A DNA stretch of 64,000 bases, taken from positions 1 through 64,000 of the forward strand of contig JALOCC010000002.1 in the NCBI GenBank assembly GCA_023227945.1, read 5' to 3'. Position numbers and translations under genes: made by a program. Shown piece by piece: positions 51,353-57,945 of the stretch (positions within the stretch are counted from its first letter, which is position 1; each line of letters starts with the position of its first letter). This DNA is from Candidatus Omnitrophota bacterium (GTDB lineage: Bacteria; Omnitrophota; Gorgyraeia; Duberdicusellales; 4484-171). The notes under the pieces were generated by a model. That model did not search any database and had not been told where the DNA came from. It saw only the letters and a program-made list of their open reading frames with translations.

Positions 51353-52054
51353 TCAAGCCCCTTTGATTTCGTACGAAAGGATTATCGCCTCAGCAACATC
51401 CTTCATGGTAAGGCGTTTATTCATGCTCACTTTTCTTAGGAGCTCATAAGCCTGCTCTTCGCTAAGGCCTTTTTGTTTCATTAATATTCCTTTTGCTCTT
51501 TCTATCTTTTTACGCGCCTCAAGCTCTTCCTGAACAATTTTAGTTTTAACCAGCAACTCAGTATTTTCTATAGCGACTGCAGCCTGATTGGCGACTGTAG
51601 TTAAAAGGTCAATATCGCTCTCGCTGAATTCATATAATGTCGTAGTATAACAATTAATAACTCCGATAACCCGGTTTTTTACCATCATCGGAACACTCAA
51701 CATGGAAGTTAATTTTTCTTTCTTGGCTAAAGTCTTTTCCTTATAACGAGGGTCCTTTAAAACATCCGGTATCACGATAGGCTTTTTCTCTTTAGCTACC
51801 AAGCCTACGATACCTTCTCCCACCATTAATTTTCTTTCCTTAAGATACTCTTCACTCATTGCCTGCGTTGCCCGGATCTTCAATGCCTTATCCTTTTCAT
51901 CCAGCAACCAAAGCGAACATATCTTAGCATTCATTACGTTAGCGGTAAGTGTGACAATAAGCTTTAAAATATCTTCCAGGTAACGATCGCTGGTTATAGC
52001 CTTACCAATTTCACGCAGTGTTTCCAGATATTCTTTATGGGGGCTTTTTTTCAT
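51353..52054 (-). CDS. GAF-ANTAR response protein (transcription antiterminator type)
   Basis: 233 residues from the ATG at 52054 with AGAAGG upstream. A GAF domain spans about 20-165 (SLWLLDEKDKALKIRATQAM, VGEGIVGLVAKEKKPIVIPD). The ANTAR domain at 170-230 reads ARKKIERAKGILMKQKGLSE and EQAYELLRKVSMNKRLTMKDVA. ANTAR proteins bind paired RNA hairpins to stop termination, often in nitrogen or ethanolamine genes. Its position between glnA and the hydrogenase makes them candidate targets, but no classical hexaloop pair is seen before either. Confidence 0.92.
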   Translation of the reverse strand: MKKSPHKEYLETLREIGKAITSDRYLEDILKLIVTLTANVMNAKICSLWLLDEKDKALKIRATQAMSEEYLKERKLMVGEGIVGLVAKEKKPIVIPDVLKDPRYKEKTLAKKEKLTSMLSVPMMVKNRVIGVINCYTTTLYEFSESDIDLLTTVANQAAVAIENTELLVKTKIVQEELEARKKIERAKGILMKQKGLSEEQAYELLRKVSMNKRLTMKDVAEAIILSYEIKGA

Positions 52055-52475
52055 AAACGAACCTTCTCGCCGTAGATAACAGGGTTTATTTGAAAAATTT
52101 ACCAGAGGTTCATTCCTTCGAAGCCCTACCAGGAATTCCAATTAGCGAAGGGCAAAGAAGGATAAATCCTCTTTCGTGTCTTATATTGTAGCAACTTTTA
52201 GCATAAAATCAACCCATTCGACGTACCACGGGCTTTATAGCCCGTGGTTTGCTCAGGGTTGATACTGAGCGGCGCCTGTATATTCCGCGCCCTAAAGGGC
52301 GCGGTTTGTGCGCCGCCAAACGTATCAACTCTTAAGCATCTTAAGGCTGGTTCAATCAGGATAATACTATTTGCAGCATCTTTTACAAAAATTGTAGATT
52401 GTGCTTAGTTCTTAAGCAAAAAATGCTATATTTTTCAACAGTTTTTGCCCTATTATAAAAAAAGATAAAAAATAC
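52055..52475. repeat. Nested hairpins between the ANTAR gene and glnA
   Basis: 52210-52265: ATCAACCC / GGGTTGAT enclose ACCACGGGC-TTTATA-GCCCGTGGT. Next, 52257-52328: GTTGATAC / GTATCAAC enclose CGGCGC / GCGCCG, which enclose CCGCGCCC-TAAA-GGGCGCGG. These could lie in the leader of the ANTAR gene (minus strand) or be IS200/IS605-type remnants. 52088-52165 holds a GGTTCATT..GAAGC repeat. No gene. Confidence 0.6.
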
Positions 52476-52504
52476 TTGACAATTGTAAAGTAATGTTTTA
52501 CAAT
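52476..52504 (+). promoter_or_regulatory. glnA promoter with an internal perfect operator
   Basis: TTGACA (52476-52481), 17 nt, TACAAT (52499-52504). The perfect inverted repeat ATTGTAAA-N7-TTTACAAT (52482-52504) fills exactly the space from the -35 box to the end of the -10 box. A dimer bound there would exclude RNA polymerase. It resembles MerR-family GlnR sites (TGTNA-N7-TNACA) but with wider spacing. Confidence 0.85.
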
Positions 52505-52553
52505 TGTATCGTAATAACGAAATATTGGTTTACAAAGCGAAAGGAGGGTCTCT

Positions 52554-54089
52554 ATGGAACAAGAATATCTAAGCCCAACAGAAGCGGCTAAGGTTTTAGG
52601 CATAAGCCGGCAGGCAGTTATTGAACGGATTAAACATGGTAATCTTTATGCGGAGAGAGTTGGAAACCGTTATATTATTCCTAAAAACACGCTTAGCGCA
52701 GCCGGCCATTCCTCCATTAAGGAAGAACCTGATGCAAGCGACAGAGTCAAAAGAAAAATGAATAAGAATGAACTTACCGTAAGCATTTTGGAAAAAGTAC
52801 GTAAATCTGAAATCAGAACCATACAGCTCTGGTTCGTTGATATTTTAGGAATACTAAAATGCATATCCATAACTCCGGGAGAGTTAAAAGATGTTTTAGA
52901 GCACGGAAAAGGCTTTGACGGCTCCTCCGTCACCGGCTTTGCGGAAGCTCAGGAATCAGATATTGTTGCCATGCCGGATGCGGCAACTTTTAAGATACTC
53001 CCCTGGACAAAAGAAACTCACCTTACTGCCAGGCTTTTTTGTGACATATTAAATCCGGACCAAACTCCTTACGCAGGAGACCCGCGTTATGTTTTGAAAA
53101 AAGCTCTTGCTCGGGCAAAAAAATTAGGCTTTACTTTCTACGTCGGCCCTGAAATTGAATATTTTTATTTTAGATCAGACAAAAACCCTGAAGTTATAGA
53201 TGAGGGCTCTTATTTTGAGCTGATACCTAATGACCTCGCTGACAATATGCGCAATAAAACTGTGAGGGTCCTGGAAGAGATGGGGATTACTATGGAAGCA
53301 ACCCATCATGAAGTTGCCCCCAGCCAGCATGAAATAGACCCTAAATATAATGACGCTCTTTCTATGGCTGACAACGCCATAACCAGCAAATATGTAATCA
53401 AAGAAATTGCCCAGCAAAATGGAGTCTATGCTACCTTTATGCCTAAACCGCTTTTCGGCGTGAATGGTTCAGGTATGCATGTGCATCAATCATTATTCAA
53501 GGAAGACCGTAATGCATTTTTTGAGAAAAAAGACAAACATCACCTTTCCTTAATTGCCAAGGAATTTATCGCCGGGCAATTAATCCATGCGCGCGAAATC
53601 TGCTCTCTTACCGCGCAATGGGTTAACTCTTACAAGAGGCTGGTTCCCGGCTATGAGGCACCGGTCTATATTTCCTGGGCGCAAAAAAACCGCACCGCAC
53701 TCCTGCGGGTTCCGTTATATCGGCCGGGAAACGAAAAAGCAACGCGGGTAGAATTAAGGTGCCCGGACCCGGCCTGTAATCCTTATCTTGCTTTTGCGGT
53801 AATGCTTGCTGCCGGATTAGAAGGTATTGAAAAAAAATATACGCTTATGCCGCCGGTTGAACCTAACCTCTATCACATGGCTATGGAGGAACGCGAGAAA
53901 CGGGGTGTAGAGTCGCTACCCGGTAACCTGTTTGAAGCAATATTAGAAACAGAAAAAAGTAAATTCATAAAAGAAACTTTAGGCGAGCATGTATTCACGC
54001 GGTTTCTATTCAACAAGAAAAAAGAATGGGAAGAATACCGGATTCAAATTACCCAGCACGAAATAAAAAAGTATCTTCCTCTGCTATAA
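52554..54089 (+). CDS. glnA: Glutamine synthetase with an N-terminal HTH DNA-binding domain
   Basis: 511 residues. Residues 5-50 (LSPTEAAKVLGISRQAVIER, YAERVGNRYIIP) are an excisionase/MerR-like helix-turn-helix with wing. A charged linker (50-75) leads to a complete GSI-alpha enzyme: GFDGSSVTGFAEAQESD, GPEIEYFYF, EVAPSQHEID, NGSGMHVHQSLF, NRTALLRVPLY. The GSI-beta adenylylation Tyr context is absent. It makes glutamine from glutamate, ammonia and ATP. AAGGAGGG precedes ATG 52554. An ATG at 52758 could give an enzyme without the HTH. The fused domain probably binds the palindrome in its own promoter (inference). Confidence 0.95.
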   Translation: MEQEYLSPTEAAKVLGISRQAVIERIKHGNLYAERVGNRYIIPKNTLSAAGHSSIKEEPDASDRVKRKMNKNELTVSILEKVRKSEIRTIQLWFVDILGILKCISITPGELKDVLEHGKGFDGSSVTGFAEAQESDIVAMPDAATFKILPWTKETHLTARLFCDILNPDQTPYAGDPRYVLKKALARAKKLGFTFYVGPEIEYFYFRSDKNPEVIDEGSYFELIPNDLADNMRNKTVRVLEEMGITMEATHHEVAPSQHEIDPKYNDALSMADNAITSKYVIKEIAQQNGVYATFMPKPLFGVNGSGMHVHQSLFKEDRNAFFEKKDKHHLSLIAKEFIAGQLIHAREICSLTAQWVNSYKRLVPGYEAPVYISWAQKNRTALLRVPLYRPGNEKATRVELRCPDPACNPYLAFAVMLAAGLEGIEKKYTLMPPVEPNLYHMAMEEREKRGVESLPGNLFEAILETEKSKFIKETLGEHVFTRFLFNKKKEWEEYRIQITQHEIKKYLPLL

Positions 54090-54154: not shown

Positions 54155-55492
54155 TTATACTACTCCTTGCGCGAGCATTGCCTCAGCGACCTTAACAAAT
54201 CCTGCGACATTTGCTCCTTTCACATAATCTATATATTTTCCGTCTTTGCCGTATTTTACGCATTGTTCATGGATAGCAATCATAATGTCGTGCAATTTAT
54301 TGTCTACTTCTTCGCGGCTCCAAGAAAGCCTCATACTATTTTGCGACATCTCTAAACCAGAAGTTGCAACACCGCCGGCGTTAGAAGCTTTTCCAGGCGC
54401 GTATAAAATTTTTGCCTTCTGAAACACTTTAATCGCTTCAGGGGTAGATGGCATATTTGCACCTTCACCTATTGCCATACAGCCATTCTTAACCAAAACT
54501 TTTGCATCAGCTTCGTCTATTTCATTCTGCGTAGCAGACGGAAAAGCAATATCGCATTTAATGTTCCATGGCTTTTCGTTTTCAAAATATTTACAGCTAA
54601 ATTCTTTAGCGCAATCTCTGATGCGGCCGCGGCGCTCATTCTTAAGGGTCATTACGCACTTTAATTCTTTGTCGTCAATTCCATCTTTGTCATAAATAAA
54701 CCCGTTAGAATCAGAAAGCGTAACAACTTTAGCACCTAATTGATGCAACTTCTCAACGGTGTATTGCGCGACATTACCGGAACCGGAAACCGCACAAACT
54801 TTTCCTTTCAAAGATTCACCTTTTGTTTTAAGCATTTCCTGCACAAAGTAAACACAACCATAACCGGTAGCTTCCGGCCTGATTAAGCTTCCGCCCCACT
54901 GTAAGCCTTTGCCGGTTAAAACTCCCGTAAATTCATTGCGCAGGCGTTTATACTGCCCGTACATAAAACCTATTTCACGGCCACCTGTTCCGATATCTCC
55001 GGCAGGAACATCTGTATCCGGGCCAATATGCCTGAAAAGCTCAGTCATAAAGCTCTGGCAAAAACGCATTACTTCATTATCAGATTTTCCTTTAGGGTCA
55101 AAATCAGAGCCGCCCTTAGCGCCACCCATAGGTAATGTGGTTAAACTATTTTTAAATACCTGTTCAAATGCCAAAAACTTTAATATGCCCAAATTAACAC
55201 TTGGATGCAAGCGTATACCACCCTTATAGGGGCCTATAGCGCTATTCATCTGGATACGAAAACCCCTGTTTACCTGGATTTCCCCCTTATCATCAATCCA
55301 GGGAACGCGAAACATAATTACCCTTTCCGGCTCAACCATTCTTTCTAATATTTTTGCTTTTTCATATTTTGGATTTGCCTCAATGAACGACATAACTGAT
55401 TCAACTACTTCACGCACTGCCTGATGAAACTCCGGTTGCCCGGGATCTCTTTTAATTACCTTCTTCATGAATTCGTCAACTTTTTTTATCAT
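54155..55492 (-). CDS. gdhA: Glutamate dehydrogenase (hexameric, NADP-type)
   Basis: 445 residues, normal for the small hexameric type. GPYKGGIRLHPSVN, LPMGGAKGGSDFDPKG (catalytic Lys), VPAGDIGTGGREIG (Asp) and VSGSGNVAQYTVEKLHQLGA (coenzyme loop; Ser and a Glu-free end favour NADP+). It aminates 2-oxoglutarate with ammonia. AAAGGAGGATAT precedes the start. It lies 75 nt after nfnB, so NADPH supply and use are linked. Confidence 0.95.
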   Translation of the reverse strand: MIKKVDEFMKKVIKRDPGQPEFHQAVREVVESVMSFIEANPKYEKAKILERMVEPERVIMFRVPWIDDKGEIQVNRGFRIQMNSAIGPYKGGIRLHPSVNLGILKFLAFEQVFKNSLTTLPMGGAKGGSDFDPKGKSDNEVMRFCQSFMTELFRHIGPDTDVPAGDIGTGGREIGFMYGQYKRLRNEFTGVLTGKGLQWGGSLIRPEATGYGCVYFVQEMLKTKGESLKGKVCAVSGSGNVAQYTVEKLHQLGAKVVTLSDSNGFIYDKDGIDDKELKCVMTLKNERRGRIRDCAKEFSCKYFENEKPWNIKCDIAFPSATQNEIDEADAKVLVKNGCMAIGEGANMPSTPEAIKVFQKAKILYAPGKASNAGGVATSGLEMSQNSMRLSWSREEVDNKLHDIMIAIHEQCVKYGKDGKYIDYVKGANVAGFVKVAEAMLAQGVV

Positions 55493-55567: not shown

Positions 55568-57031
55568 TTATTTAAGCCTATCAATAATAGCCTTGGCTGC
55601 CTTTTTAGCCATACCCATTGCTTCAATTACTGTTCCTTCACCTCCGACAATATCTCCTCCGGCAAAAACATTTTTTATGGATGTTTCCATGGCCTCTTGC
55701 TCCACAATAATATCGCCATATTTATCTGTTTTTAACGCTGGAGTAACTTTAGTTAATATTTGATTAGCATTTAAACCTATAGCAACTATCGCGATATCGC
55801 AATCTACCTCAAAATCACTTCCCGGAATTTCTATGGGCTTTCGCCGGCCTGAGCTATCTGGCTTTCCCAACTCGCATTGTAAACAACGCAGTTTCGTAAC
55901 AAAACCTTTCTCATCCCCGAAAAACTCCTGCGGCTTAACTAAAAGTTTAAATTGTATGCCTTCTTCCTTGGCATGTTCAATCTCAAGGCGCCTTGCCGGC
56001 ATTTCTACCTCGCTACGGCGATAAAGAATAGTGGTATTTGGGTTAATGCCATTCATTTTCTGTAATCGCAAAGCGCATCGCGCTGCATCCATAGCAGTAT
56101 TGCCGCCGCCGATAACAACCATACTTTTGCCTATGTTTACCGGGGTGTGAGCTTTAGGGAACTTATAAGCAGACATCAAATTTACTCTGGTCAAAAATTC
56201 ATTAGCCGAATAAATATTGCAAAGGTTTTCCCCTTTAATGCCTAAGAAAGACGGTATTCCCGCGCCCAAGCCTAAAAACACCGAGGAAAACCCTTCTTTT
56301 AATAATTCGTCCACATCTTTGTTTCTACCCACAATAAAATTAGGTATAAATTCAACGCCCATTTTTTTAAGTGAATCTATCTCATAATCAAGAATATTTC
56401 TTGGCAGCCTAAAAGGCGGTATTCCATAACGCAGCACCCCCCCTAATTTATGCAAGCCTTCAAACATAACTACTTTTATTCCTCTACGGGCAAGTTCGCC
56501 GGCGCAAGCTATGCCTGCAGGGCCGGAGCCAACTATAGCCACTCGCTTGGCGTGTGGCGTGGGGCGTGGGGCGTGGGGCGTAGAATCGTTATGATTCATT
56601 CCGTAATCGCCAATAAAACGCTCTAAAAAATGAATGTTTATCGCCTGAGGCGTTGCAAAAGGCTCACCTTTTTTGCTTAAAACGCATGCTTTTCGGCATT
56701 GGTATTCAGCGGGGCAAACTCTTCCGCAAATAGAAGGGAAATTATTTTTTTCCCGGATAGTATTATAAGCGCCAGCATAATCTTTCTGGGTAATTTTATA
56801 AATAAATGTTTTTATATCTATCTCAACCGGACACCCTGAGATACAAAGCGGATTTTTGCATTGCAAGCACCGACCCGCCTCGGCAAGAGCCTCTTCTTCG
56901 CCATATCCCAATATAACTTCATTGAAATTTTCGGCTCTGACCTTAGCTTCTACTTCTTTGATTTTTACGGGTTCTTTTTTCACGATGTTAAACCTCTTAA
57001 GTTTAAAGAGTAGATAAATTTTACTAAACAA
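55568..57031 (-). CDS. nfnB: NfnB / GltD-type NADPH oxidoreductase
   Basis: 487 residues. Cluster-binding N-terminus CLQCKNPLCISGCPVEIDI and SICGRVCPAEYQCRKACV, then FAD loop VAIVGSGPAGIACAGELARRG and NADP loop MVVIGGGNTAMDAARCAL. It ends FAGGDIVGGEGTVIEAMGMA. As the second gene of a pair with NfnA it is best read as the large subunit of NADH-dependent ferredoxin:NADP+ oxidoreductase, which bifurcates electrons. A low-complexity insert (STPHAPRPTPHAK) sits between the two halves. Confidence 0.9.
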   Translation of the reverse strand: MFSKIYLLFKLKRFNIVKKEPVKIKEVEAKVRAENFNEVILGYGEEEALAEAGRCLQCKNPLCISGCPVEIDIKTFIYKITQKDYAGAYNTIREKNNFPSICGRVCPAEYQCRKACVLSKKGEPFATPQAINIHFLERFIGDYGMNHNDSTPHAPRPTPHAKRVAIVGSGPAGIACAGELARRGIKVVMFEGLHKLGGVLRYGIPPFRLPRNILDYEIDSLKKMGVEFIPNFIVGRNKDVDELLKEGFSSVFLGLGAGIPSFLGIKGENLCNIYSANEFLTRVNLMSAYKFPKAHTPVNIGKSMVVIGGGNTAMDAARCALRLQKMNGINPNTTILYRRSEVEMPARRLEIEHAKEEGIQFKLLVKPQEFFGDEKGFVTKLRCLQCELGKPDSSGRRKPIEIPGSDFEVDCDIAIVAIGLNANQILTKVTPALKTDKYGDIIVEQEAMETSIKNVFAGGDIVGGEGTVIEAMGMAKKAAKAIIDRLK

Positions 57032-57105: not shown

Positions 57106-57945
57106 TTACAAATTATTCAACCGACAAATATGCTGTTCTTTATCGTAATAAATCTTGTTTCTTTTTGTCAGCTCATCCCAATCGACCTCGTGGGCATCGA
57201 ATTCCGGGCCGTCAACACAGCTAAACTTGGTCTTTCCCCCAACGCTTACCCGGCAGCACCCGCACATACCGGTTGCATCAACCATCAGAGCGTTAAGCGA
57301 AACAAGAGTTTTTATATTAAATGGTTTTGTTGTTTCAGCAACTTTACGCATCATTGGTATTGGCCCGACAGCATATACAAGGCTGTATGGCTCACTCTTT
57401 CGAGCTAATAAATCTTTCAAAATATCGGTAACAAAGCCCTTTTTCCCGTAAGACCCATCATCTGTCGTTATATAAAAGTTATCTGATGCTTTCTTTAACT
57501 CCTGCTCTAAAATTAGCAACTCTTTAGTCCGTGCGCCTAAAATAGTAGTTACCCTGTTGCCTGCTGCTTTAAACGCACGAGTTACAGGATAAATTTCTGC
57601 CATGCCCACGCCGCCGCCGACTATAATCACATTAGCAGATTTATGAATTTCTGTAGGGTGCCCGAGAGGCCCGGCAAGCGCATATAAAGAATCTCCAACG
57701 TTTAACTTCCCTAAAAGCCTGGTAGTAAACCCGGCTTCCTGAAAGATTATAGTAATAGCTGTTTTATTTGCGTCGATTTCGGCTATGGTCAGGGGTATTC
57801 TTTCGCCTTCTTCACCCGCCATAAGCACTATAAATTGCCCTGCCTTTGCACGAACGGCAATATTTTGAGCAGCAAGTTTTATCTGAACTATCCTTGAACC
57901 GGGCACATCCGCCAATATTTTTTTCTCTAATATTTTTATACTCAT
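57106..57945 (-). CDS. nfnA: NfnA / sulfide-dehydrogenase-type FAD and NAD-binding subunit
   Basis: 279 residues. FAD-binding barrel RIPLTIAEIDANKTAITIIF, NAD loop ANVIIVGGGVGMAEIYPVT and the [2Fe-2S] end GMCGCCRVSVGGKTKFSCVD. With the adjacent large subunit (75 nt on) it forms Nfn, which couples NADH and reduced ferredoxin to NADP+ reduction. A promoter-like TTGGTT-N16-TATAAT stands at 57990-57963. Confidence 0.92.
   Translation of the reverse strand: MSIKILEKKILADVPGSRIVQIKLAAQNIAVRAKAGQFIVLMAGEEGERIPLTIAEIDANKTAITIIFQEAGFTTRLLGKLNVGDSLYALAGPLGHPTEIHKSANVIIVGGGVGMAEIYPVTRAFKAAGNRVTTILGARTKELLILEQELKKASDNFYITTDDGSYGKKGFVTDILKDLLARKSEPYSLVYAVGPIPMMRKVAETTKPFNIKTLVSLNALMVDATGMCGCCRVSVGGKTKFSCVDGPEFDAHEVDWDELTKRNKIYYDKEQHICRLNNL

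Follow-up and report, generated by a model that had tools for sequence, protein, structure and literature searches.

Can a metabolic enzyme act as the repressor of its own gene? The question is raised by a glutamine synthetase (GS) gene in a stretch of 64,000 nucleotides from a Candidatus Omnitrophota bacterium (GenBank assembly GCA_023227945.1, contig JALOCC010000002.1, positions 1 to 64,000; hereafter the window). The gene (52554..54089, forward strand) is a single open reading frame (ORF) of 511 amino acids with an ATG start, in which a winged helix-turn-helix (HTH) domain precedes a type-I GS (GSI). Comparing this gene with its relatives, we consider it likely that the HTH domains bind two operators, one over the -35 element and one over the -10/+1 region, and that the enzyme would thereby autogenously repress its own gene with no separate regulator. 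The fusion and its candidate operator are themselves very well supported by these comparisons.

The predicted product has three parts. The winged HTH domain (residues 1 to 47; 52554..52694, forward strand) matches the curated models HTH_17 (PF12728; residues 5 to 47, 29.6 bits against a cutoff of 27) in Pfam and excise (TIGR01764; 32.4 against 28.8) in NCBIfam. Its structural model (pLDDT of 88), with helices at residues 8 to 15 and 19 to 28 and strands at 34 to 36 and 39 to 43, matches the winged HTH fold, while a search of the PDB with an HTH sequence profile returned weak matches only (best E = 0.0055). A variable linker follows (residues 48 to 76; 52695..52781, forward strand), marked by low pLDDT, a high rate of nonsynonymous substitution (dN), and a length that differs among relatives. 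Residues 49 to 68 fall below a pLDDT of 50 in the full-length AlphaFold model, which was only fair (72.5, with the five models ranging from 48 to 72.5) and was used for the linker only. The remainder (residues 77 to 511; 52782..54086, forward strand) matches Gln-synt_N (PF03951, residues 87 to 168) and Gln-synt_C (PF00120, residues 175 to 507), both above cutoff, and the GlnA model TIGR00653 (506.6 bits; cutoff, 429). We assigned it to GSI-alpha from this full GlnA match with both beta-grasp and catalytic domains; there is no sign of the insertion of about 25 residues found in GSI-beta, the gaps relative to the five best solved chains all being short. Thirteen positions that we take to be of the active-site type are unchanged in 30/30 fusions, and GlnE, the adenylylation enzyme, was found in 0/24 fusion genomes and in 3/14 controls. 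A Shine-Dalgarno sequence, GGAGG (52543..52547, forward strand), can be read six bases before the start codon. A preliminary description of this DNA, made from its letters, had reported an HTH in frame with a complete GSI-alpha and a Shine-Dalgarno sequence before ATG 52554; the ORF, Pfam, and NCBIfam results bear this out.

Upstream of the gene is a sigma-70-like promoter, TTGACA-17-TACAAT (52476..52504, forward strand), identified by consensus match only (11/12). With 7 promoter-like sites in the scanned stretch against an expected 4.4, a consensus match is little proof on its own. Two candidate operators overlie this promoter. Operator 1, TTGACAATTGTAAA (52476..52489, forward strand), agrees with the pattern TTKACANNTGTMAA at 12/12 positions, and its first six bases are the -35 hexamer. 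Operator 2, TTTACAATTGTATC (52497..52510, forward strand), agrees at 10/12 and spans the -10 element and the expected transcription start. Together they form a perfect 11-7-11 inverted repeat (52479..52507), with arms ACAATTGTAAA (52479-52489) and TTTACAATTGT (52497-52507). The preliminary description had placed a perfect 8-7-8 repeat between -35 and -10. That repeat is present in the promoter, but it is longer than was thought and is made up of the inner halves of two palindromes. After comparing 28 related promoters with that of the window, we replaced the single 8-7-8 palindrome with a unit of two tandem 14-bp palindromes, TTKACA-NN-TGTMAA, as the putative operator. We regard the inverted repeat alone as weak evidence because of what shuffling the window leads one to expect: there are 12 perfect 8-7-8 repeats against 2.3 expected, and the same pattern with 3 mismatches allowed is no rarer than chance. 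Placement and conservation carry the case. As a separate observation, the whole window has a surplus of perfect inverted repeats with a gap of 7 over shuffled sequence, which for arms of at least 11 amounts to 9 against 0.1. Rfam gave no match within the window.

The preliminary description had proposed looking for the palindrome before homologous genes, and there the site recurs. Of the fusion genes, 29/30 have a match of at least 11/12 no farther than 200 bp from the start, versus 1/32 HTH-less GS genes, the latter being locus L045, with its site at -150. The left copy begins with the -35 sequence TTGACA in 28 of the 29 rows that have a site, and the right copy, which covers or follows the -10 element, reaches at least 10/12 in 27/30 rows. 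The best pairs are spaced 21 bp apart in 8 rows, 26 to 28 bp in 19, and 32 to 33 bp in 3, a tally that takes in the weak pairs at L025 and L023. A promoter alone could account for the TTGACA half but not for the TGTMAA half, which lies in the spacer. In a tree of the GS part only (60 rows, 30 with HTH), the HTH label requires two changes, which on the midpoint root we read as one gain and one loss. The putative loss (L026/L081) sits within a ten-row clade with support of 100/99. Its promoter is kept (TTGACAATTATTAC...TATGAT) and the TGTMAA half is gone; a tblastn search upstream of the HTH-less sister recovered no HTH remnant. In this lineage, then, operator and HTH appear to have been lost together. 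At another locus (L003, G002:C40), the fusion GS and a second, HTH-less GS are divergent, and the operator lies in between.

Because the operator pattern was learned from GS promoters, we tested it outside them. The five best standalone HTH matches in the 42 genomes of the order of G002 are 85 to 87 amino acids long and immediately precede a Fic-family gene (5/5 neighbors match Pfam Fic; 2/2 standalone proteins tested match HTH_17), and TTAACATATGTTAA occurs in the promoters of 3/5. When we searched the phylum with one standalone protein, 71/285 genomes had a match, GS fusions included. Among 30 standalone loci (L134-L138 and L139-L168), 27 had a Fic motif downstream by pattern. An exact TTNACANNTGTNAA (TTNACA-NN-TGTNAA) was present within 200 bp upstream in 19/30, against a shuffle rate of 0.03%, and in 16/25 once the five loci seen first were set aside. 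Neighboring site pairs at these loci were spaced 27 to 29 bp apart in 6/9 cases, like the 26- to 28-bp class of GS promoters. For comparison, the same 10-position core is exact in 25/30 GS-fusion promoters (shuffle rate, 0.13%) versus 0/32 HTH-less ones. HTH family and operator grammar thus appear to go together in two unrelated gene settings, and the family probably reads this operator. The two settings differ in detail. The third base of exact half-sites is G or T in 64/64 cases at GS genes versus A in 43/46 at Fic modules, part of the G excess stemming from the -35 overlap. In the recognition helix, residue 20 is Q in 30/30 fusions versus I/V in 27/30 standalone proteins, and residue 23 is I/V/T/L in fusions versus Y/F in 30/30 standalone proteins. 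Proteins of two genomes (G195 and G210) contain HTH_17-like stretches repeated several times in tandem (11 matches per genome).

We also asked how far the control might extend. Scanning 22 fusion genomes in full for exact matches yielded 35 sites, spread over 19 of these genomes; 26 are at the fusion promoter and 9 elsewhere. In the other three (G009, G016, and G022), the fusion promoters reach 11/12. Six of the 9 outside sites lie inside ORFs of at least 114 amino acids, 2 inside short, doubtful ORFs, and 1 is intergenic. Since 22 HTH-less genomes contained 8 exact sites, none of them on a contig listed with a GS, the outside sites are at background. We therefore rejected a wider regulon: with matching this strict, the fusion seems to have no target other than its own gene.

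In the mechanism that we favor, each GS subunit would bear a winged HTH of the BldC/Xis type, joined to it through a loose linker, and the oligomer would supply HTH pairs. These would bind the two tandem palindromes, and the DNA-bound enzyme would block RNA polymerase. We infer the binding, and from the position of the sites we infer repression. GS is normally abundant, and a GSI, being a dodecamer, would carry 12 HTH heads. With many subunits in the cell and a single operator pair on each chromosome, tight binding without gating would silence the gene early. We would thus expect either weak binding that meters the amount of GS or gating by the state of the enzyme.

Several points weigh against autorepression. 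Binding and repression are predictions from sequence. Locus L023 has the HTH and no site in its 146 available upstream bases, the right site reaches 10/12 in only the 27 rows given above, and the variable spacing includes helical phases about half a turn apart. TTKACANNTGTMAA was derived from the GS promoters themselves, and the pair picker gives TTGACA one extra point. The first half of the left site is also the -35 hexamer, so its conservation is partly that of the promoter. The outside test was not fully blind, since the pattern had its third base freed after the first five standalone promoters were viewed, and 11/30 standalone loci are without the exact site. Finally, the genomes are mostly metagenome-assembled genomes (MAGs) of unstated completeness.

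If the enzyme does repress its own gene, what would it sense? In Bacillus, GSI-alpha controls its own transcription through the MerR-like winged HTH proteins GlnR and TnrA (PMC9249791, where one GlnR site is given). Enzyme and regulator are two proteins there, joined by the C-terminal tail of GlnR, which enters the active site of a glutamine-bound GS that carries Arg62. The preliminary description had united this sensor and repressor in a single protein that would respond to high glutamine. Autorepression by one protein stands as the likeliest reading, given the fusion and its promoter operator, but sensing by the Bacillus route is not supported: the position of B. subtilis Arg62 is a glutamate (Glu131) in 30/30 fusions. 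According to PMC10799026 and PMC11957540, the glutamine-feedback arginine is R62 in B. subtilis and R66 in M. mazei and is also found in M. shengliensis; R66A abolishes glutamine inhibition of M. mazei GS, and MtGS, with Gly67, is not inhibited. Glutamate also occupies this position in 12/31 HTH-less rows, so Glu131 is probably older than the fusion. Those 12 rows and the window protein make up a GSI group in which Glu replaces the feedback arginine. A GlnR-type box (TGTNAN7TNACA) is absent at the promoter and has two matches elsewhere in the window against 0.81 expected; no search was made for a separate GlnR gene. The fusion thus differs from the Bacillus circuit in being one protein, in having Glu at the Arg62 position, and in its operator, and we judge it unlikely that the same protein and operator are gated by glutamine through Bacillus-type feedback, as GS plus GlnR in one.

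Because the classic feedback arginine is absent, it would be unsafe to take glutamine as the signal. We also rejected 2-oxoglutarate sensing by the M. mazei site. The arginines R26, R87, R172, and R173 correspond to Q91, T152, R233, and N234 in the window protein; three of the four are absent, and only the R172 equivalent is kept in 30/30 fusions. PII scored above cutoff in 14/24 fusion genomes; in 12/14, a PII gene is located no more than about 2.5 kb from a second GS gene, and in the remaining two (G001 and G300) it shares a contig with the fusion. No Gln-synt_C match other than the fusion was found in 7/24 fusion genomes; provided that these MAGs are complete, the fusion would serve as their working GS.

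The HTH could instead activate the gene, reshaping the promoter in the manner of MerR. Its fold is MerR-like, and between -35 and -10 the inner half-sites make up a palindrome, the layout of MerR-type promoters. Such promoters have -35/-10 spacings of 19 to 20 nucleotides, whereas the best spacing here, with 15 to 19 allowed, is a normal 16 to 17 in 28/30 rows (exceptions, L023 and L029). A second site over -10/+1 also argues against activation, which we regard as improbable.

Another protein, such as the standalone HTH of a Fic module, might bind the palindromes while the HTH of the GS does something else. The standalone proteins are homologs with nearly the same operators, and fusion and standalone protein coexist in G008, G009, G011, G020, and G022. 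Yet seven genomes (G002, G005, G007, G010, G017, G100, and G278) match the fusion only (E ≤ 0.001) and still keep the operator. Together with the joint loss of operator and HTH, and with the differences at the third base and residue 20, this makes a foreign binder highly improbable.

The fusion itself is found well beyond the window. As the preliminary description had suggested, we searched for the architecture: among candidates of whole-protein length retrieved with residues 1 to 80, 41/44 carry precomputed HTH_17, Gln-synt_N, and Gln-synt_C matches. All five rows with an organism in the source name are Candidatus Omnitrophota or Omnitrophica. A species-genome scan gave 47 loci with the HTH in frame in 28. 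Counting matches that start at residue 1 to 3, at least 14/285 sampled Omnitrophota genomes encode the fusion; in the order of G002, 6/42 do. In three pairs formed by the window, L001, and L002, HTH dN is 0.014 to 0.043 at a synonymous divergence (dS) of about 1 or more (window against L001 and L002, dN of 0.019 and 0.014 and dS of about 1.0). Linker dN in these pairs is 0.27 to 0.93 (window against L001, 0.93; against L002, 0.27). The HTH was scorable in 6/8 pairs, with dN/dS of 0.014 to 0.067, of which three are unreliable with dS above 2. These values point to strong purifying selection on the HTH and not on the linker, and since an untranslated HTH would not show such selection, the HTH is presumably translated. 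The preliminary description had also suggested HTH-free subunits from the ATG at 52758 (Met69), a notion that fares poorly given that only L002 among the 30 fusions has a methionine at the same place, in a survey of ATG starts. That the HTH is an untranslated artifact of annotation or assembly, with the real start at 52758 or a local frameshift behind it, has almost nothing in its favor beyond that in-frame ATG and some linker methionine in 15/30 fusions, against which stand the 15/30 with none, the selection on HTH codons, the good ribosome site at 52543, and the recurrence of the fusion across many separate assemblies.

Where did the domain come from? The HTH_17-Fic gene pairs are probably modules of the toxin-antitoxin type. 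The putatively antitoxin-like protein of these Omnitrophota pairs shares with the fusion a homologous HTH and a TTNACA-NN-TGTNAA site in its own promoter; it differs in standing alone at about 85 to 90 amino acids, in preferring A over G/T at the third base, and in having Ile rather than Gln at residue 20. In the window, the fusion does not sit beside a toxin gene, as a type II antitoxin would; its neighbors there encode a GAF-ANTAR protein and a glutamate dehydrogenase. Homology and operator grammar make it plausible that the HTH descends from a repressor of antitoxin-like kind. We offer, tentatively and as somewhat less than an even bet, a fuller account: GS may have captured the HTH and operator grammar of an antitoxin-like autorepressor and changed its specificity at a single base (from A to G/T, alongside Ile20 to Gln), avoiding cross-talk, to become a many-headed repressor gated by catalytic state, the signal being one that does not use the known glutamine-feedback or 2-oxoglutarate sites.

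The fusion gene lies within a predicted nitrogen cluster. Divergent from it is a gene for a GAF-ANTAR protein (51353..52054, reverse strand; Pfam GAF_2 and ANTAR), for which tblastn found an upstream match on the other strand at 8/29 fusion loci, short contigs included. As the site sits between both genes, the operator region may control the ANTAR gene too; ANTAR proteins usually act on RNA leaders. The divergent intergenic region also contains two strong hairpins (52225-52304), ACCACGGGCT/AGCCCGTGGT and CCGCGCCCT/AGGGCGCGG, the first found once in the window and neither matching Rfam. Convergent with the fusion is an NADP-specific glutamate dehydrogenase gene (54155..55492, reverse strand; Pfam and NCBIfam), with tblastn matches in the downstream flank of 6/29 fusion loci (L005, L008, L010, L013, L018, and L028). 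It is followed by genes for a flavoprotein of the glutamate synthase small-subunit type (55568..57031, reverse strand; TIGR01316) and an adjoining FAD/NAD-binding protein (57106..57945, reverse strand; PRK06222).

Among known systems, trifunctional PutA is alike in being a metabolic enzyme with its own N-terminal DNA-binding domain that represses its own regulon, as an autogenous repressor (PMC5293562). The fusion likewise joins a predicted catalytic enzyme and a DNA-binding domain in one chain, and its candidate operator, on sequence evidence, lies in its own promoter. By analogy, it would be an autogenous repressor enzyme of the PutA kind, with glutamine synthetase as a case that our survey of titles did not turn up. 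PutA has a ribbon-helix-helix domain and serves proline catabolism; here, we predict a BldC/Xis-type winged HTH, nitrogen assimilation, apparently one target, and a dodecamer. BldC and the phage excisionases (Xis) differ in not being fused to an enzyme, and BldC binds direct repeats, whereas the operator here is palindromic. A partial, title-level literature survey, with subscription journals and preprints mostly outside it, found no title on an HTH-glutamine synthetase fusion, which is no proof of absence.

The sharp difference in one recognition-helix residue and one operator base between fusions and standalone proteins provides a test case for joint specificity change of a domain and its operator. 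The level of GS is usually tied to nitrogen status by a chain of proteins (PII, NtrBC, and GlnR). In these Omnitrophota, the enzyme seems to make that link alone, and the fusion would be a clean test case of an enzyme oligomer that reads its own state and acts as a repressor.
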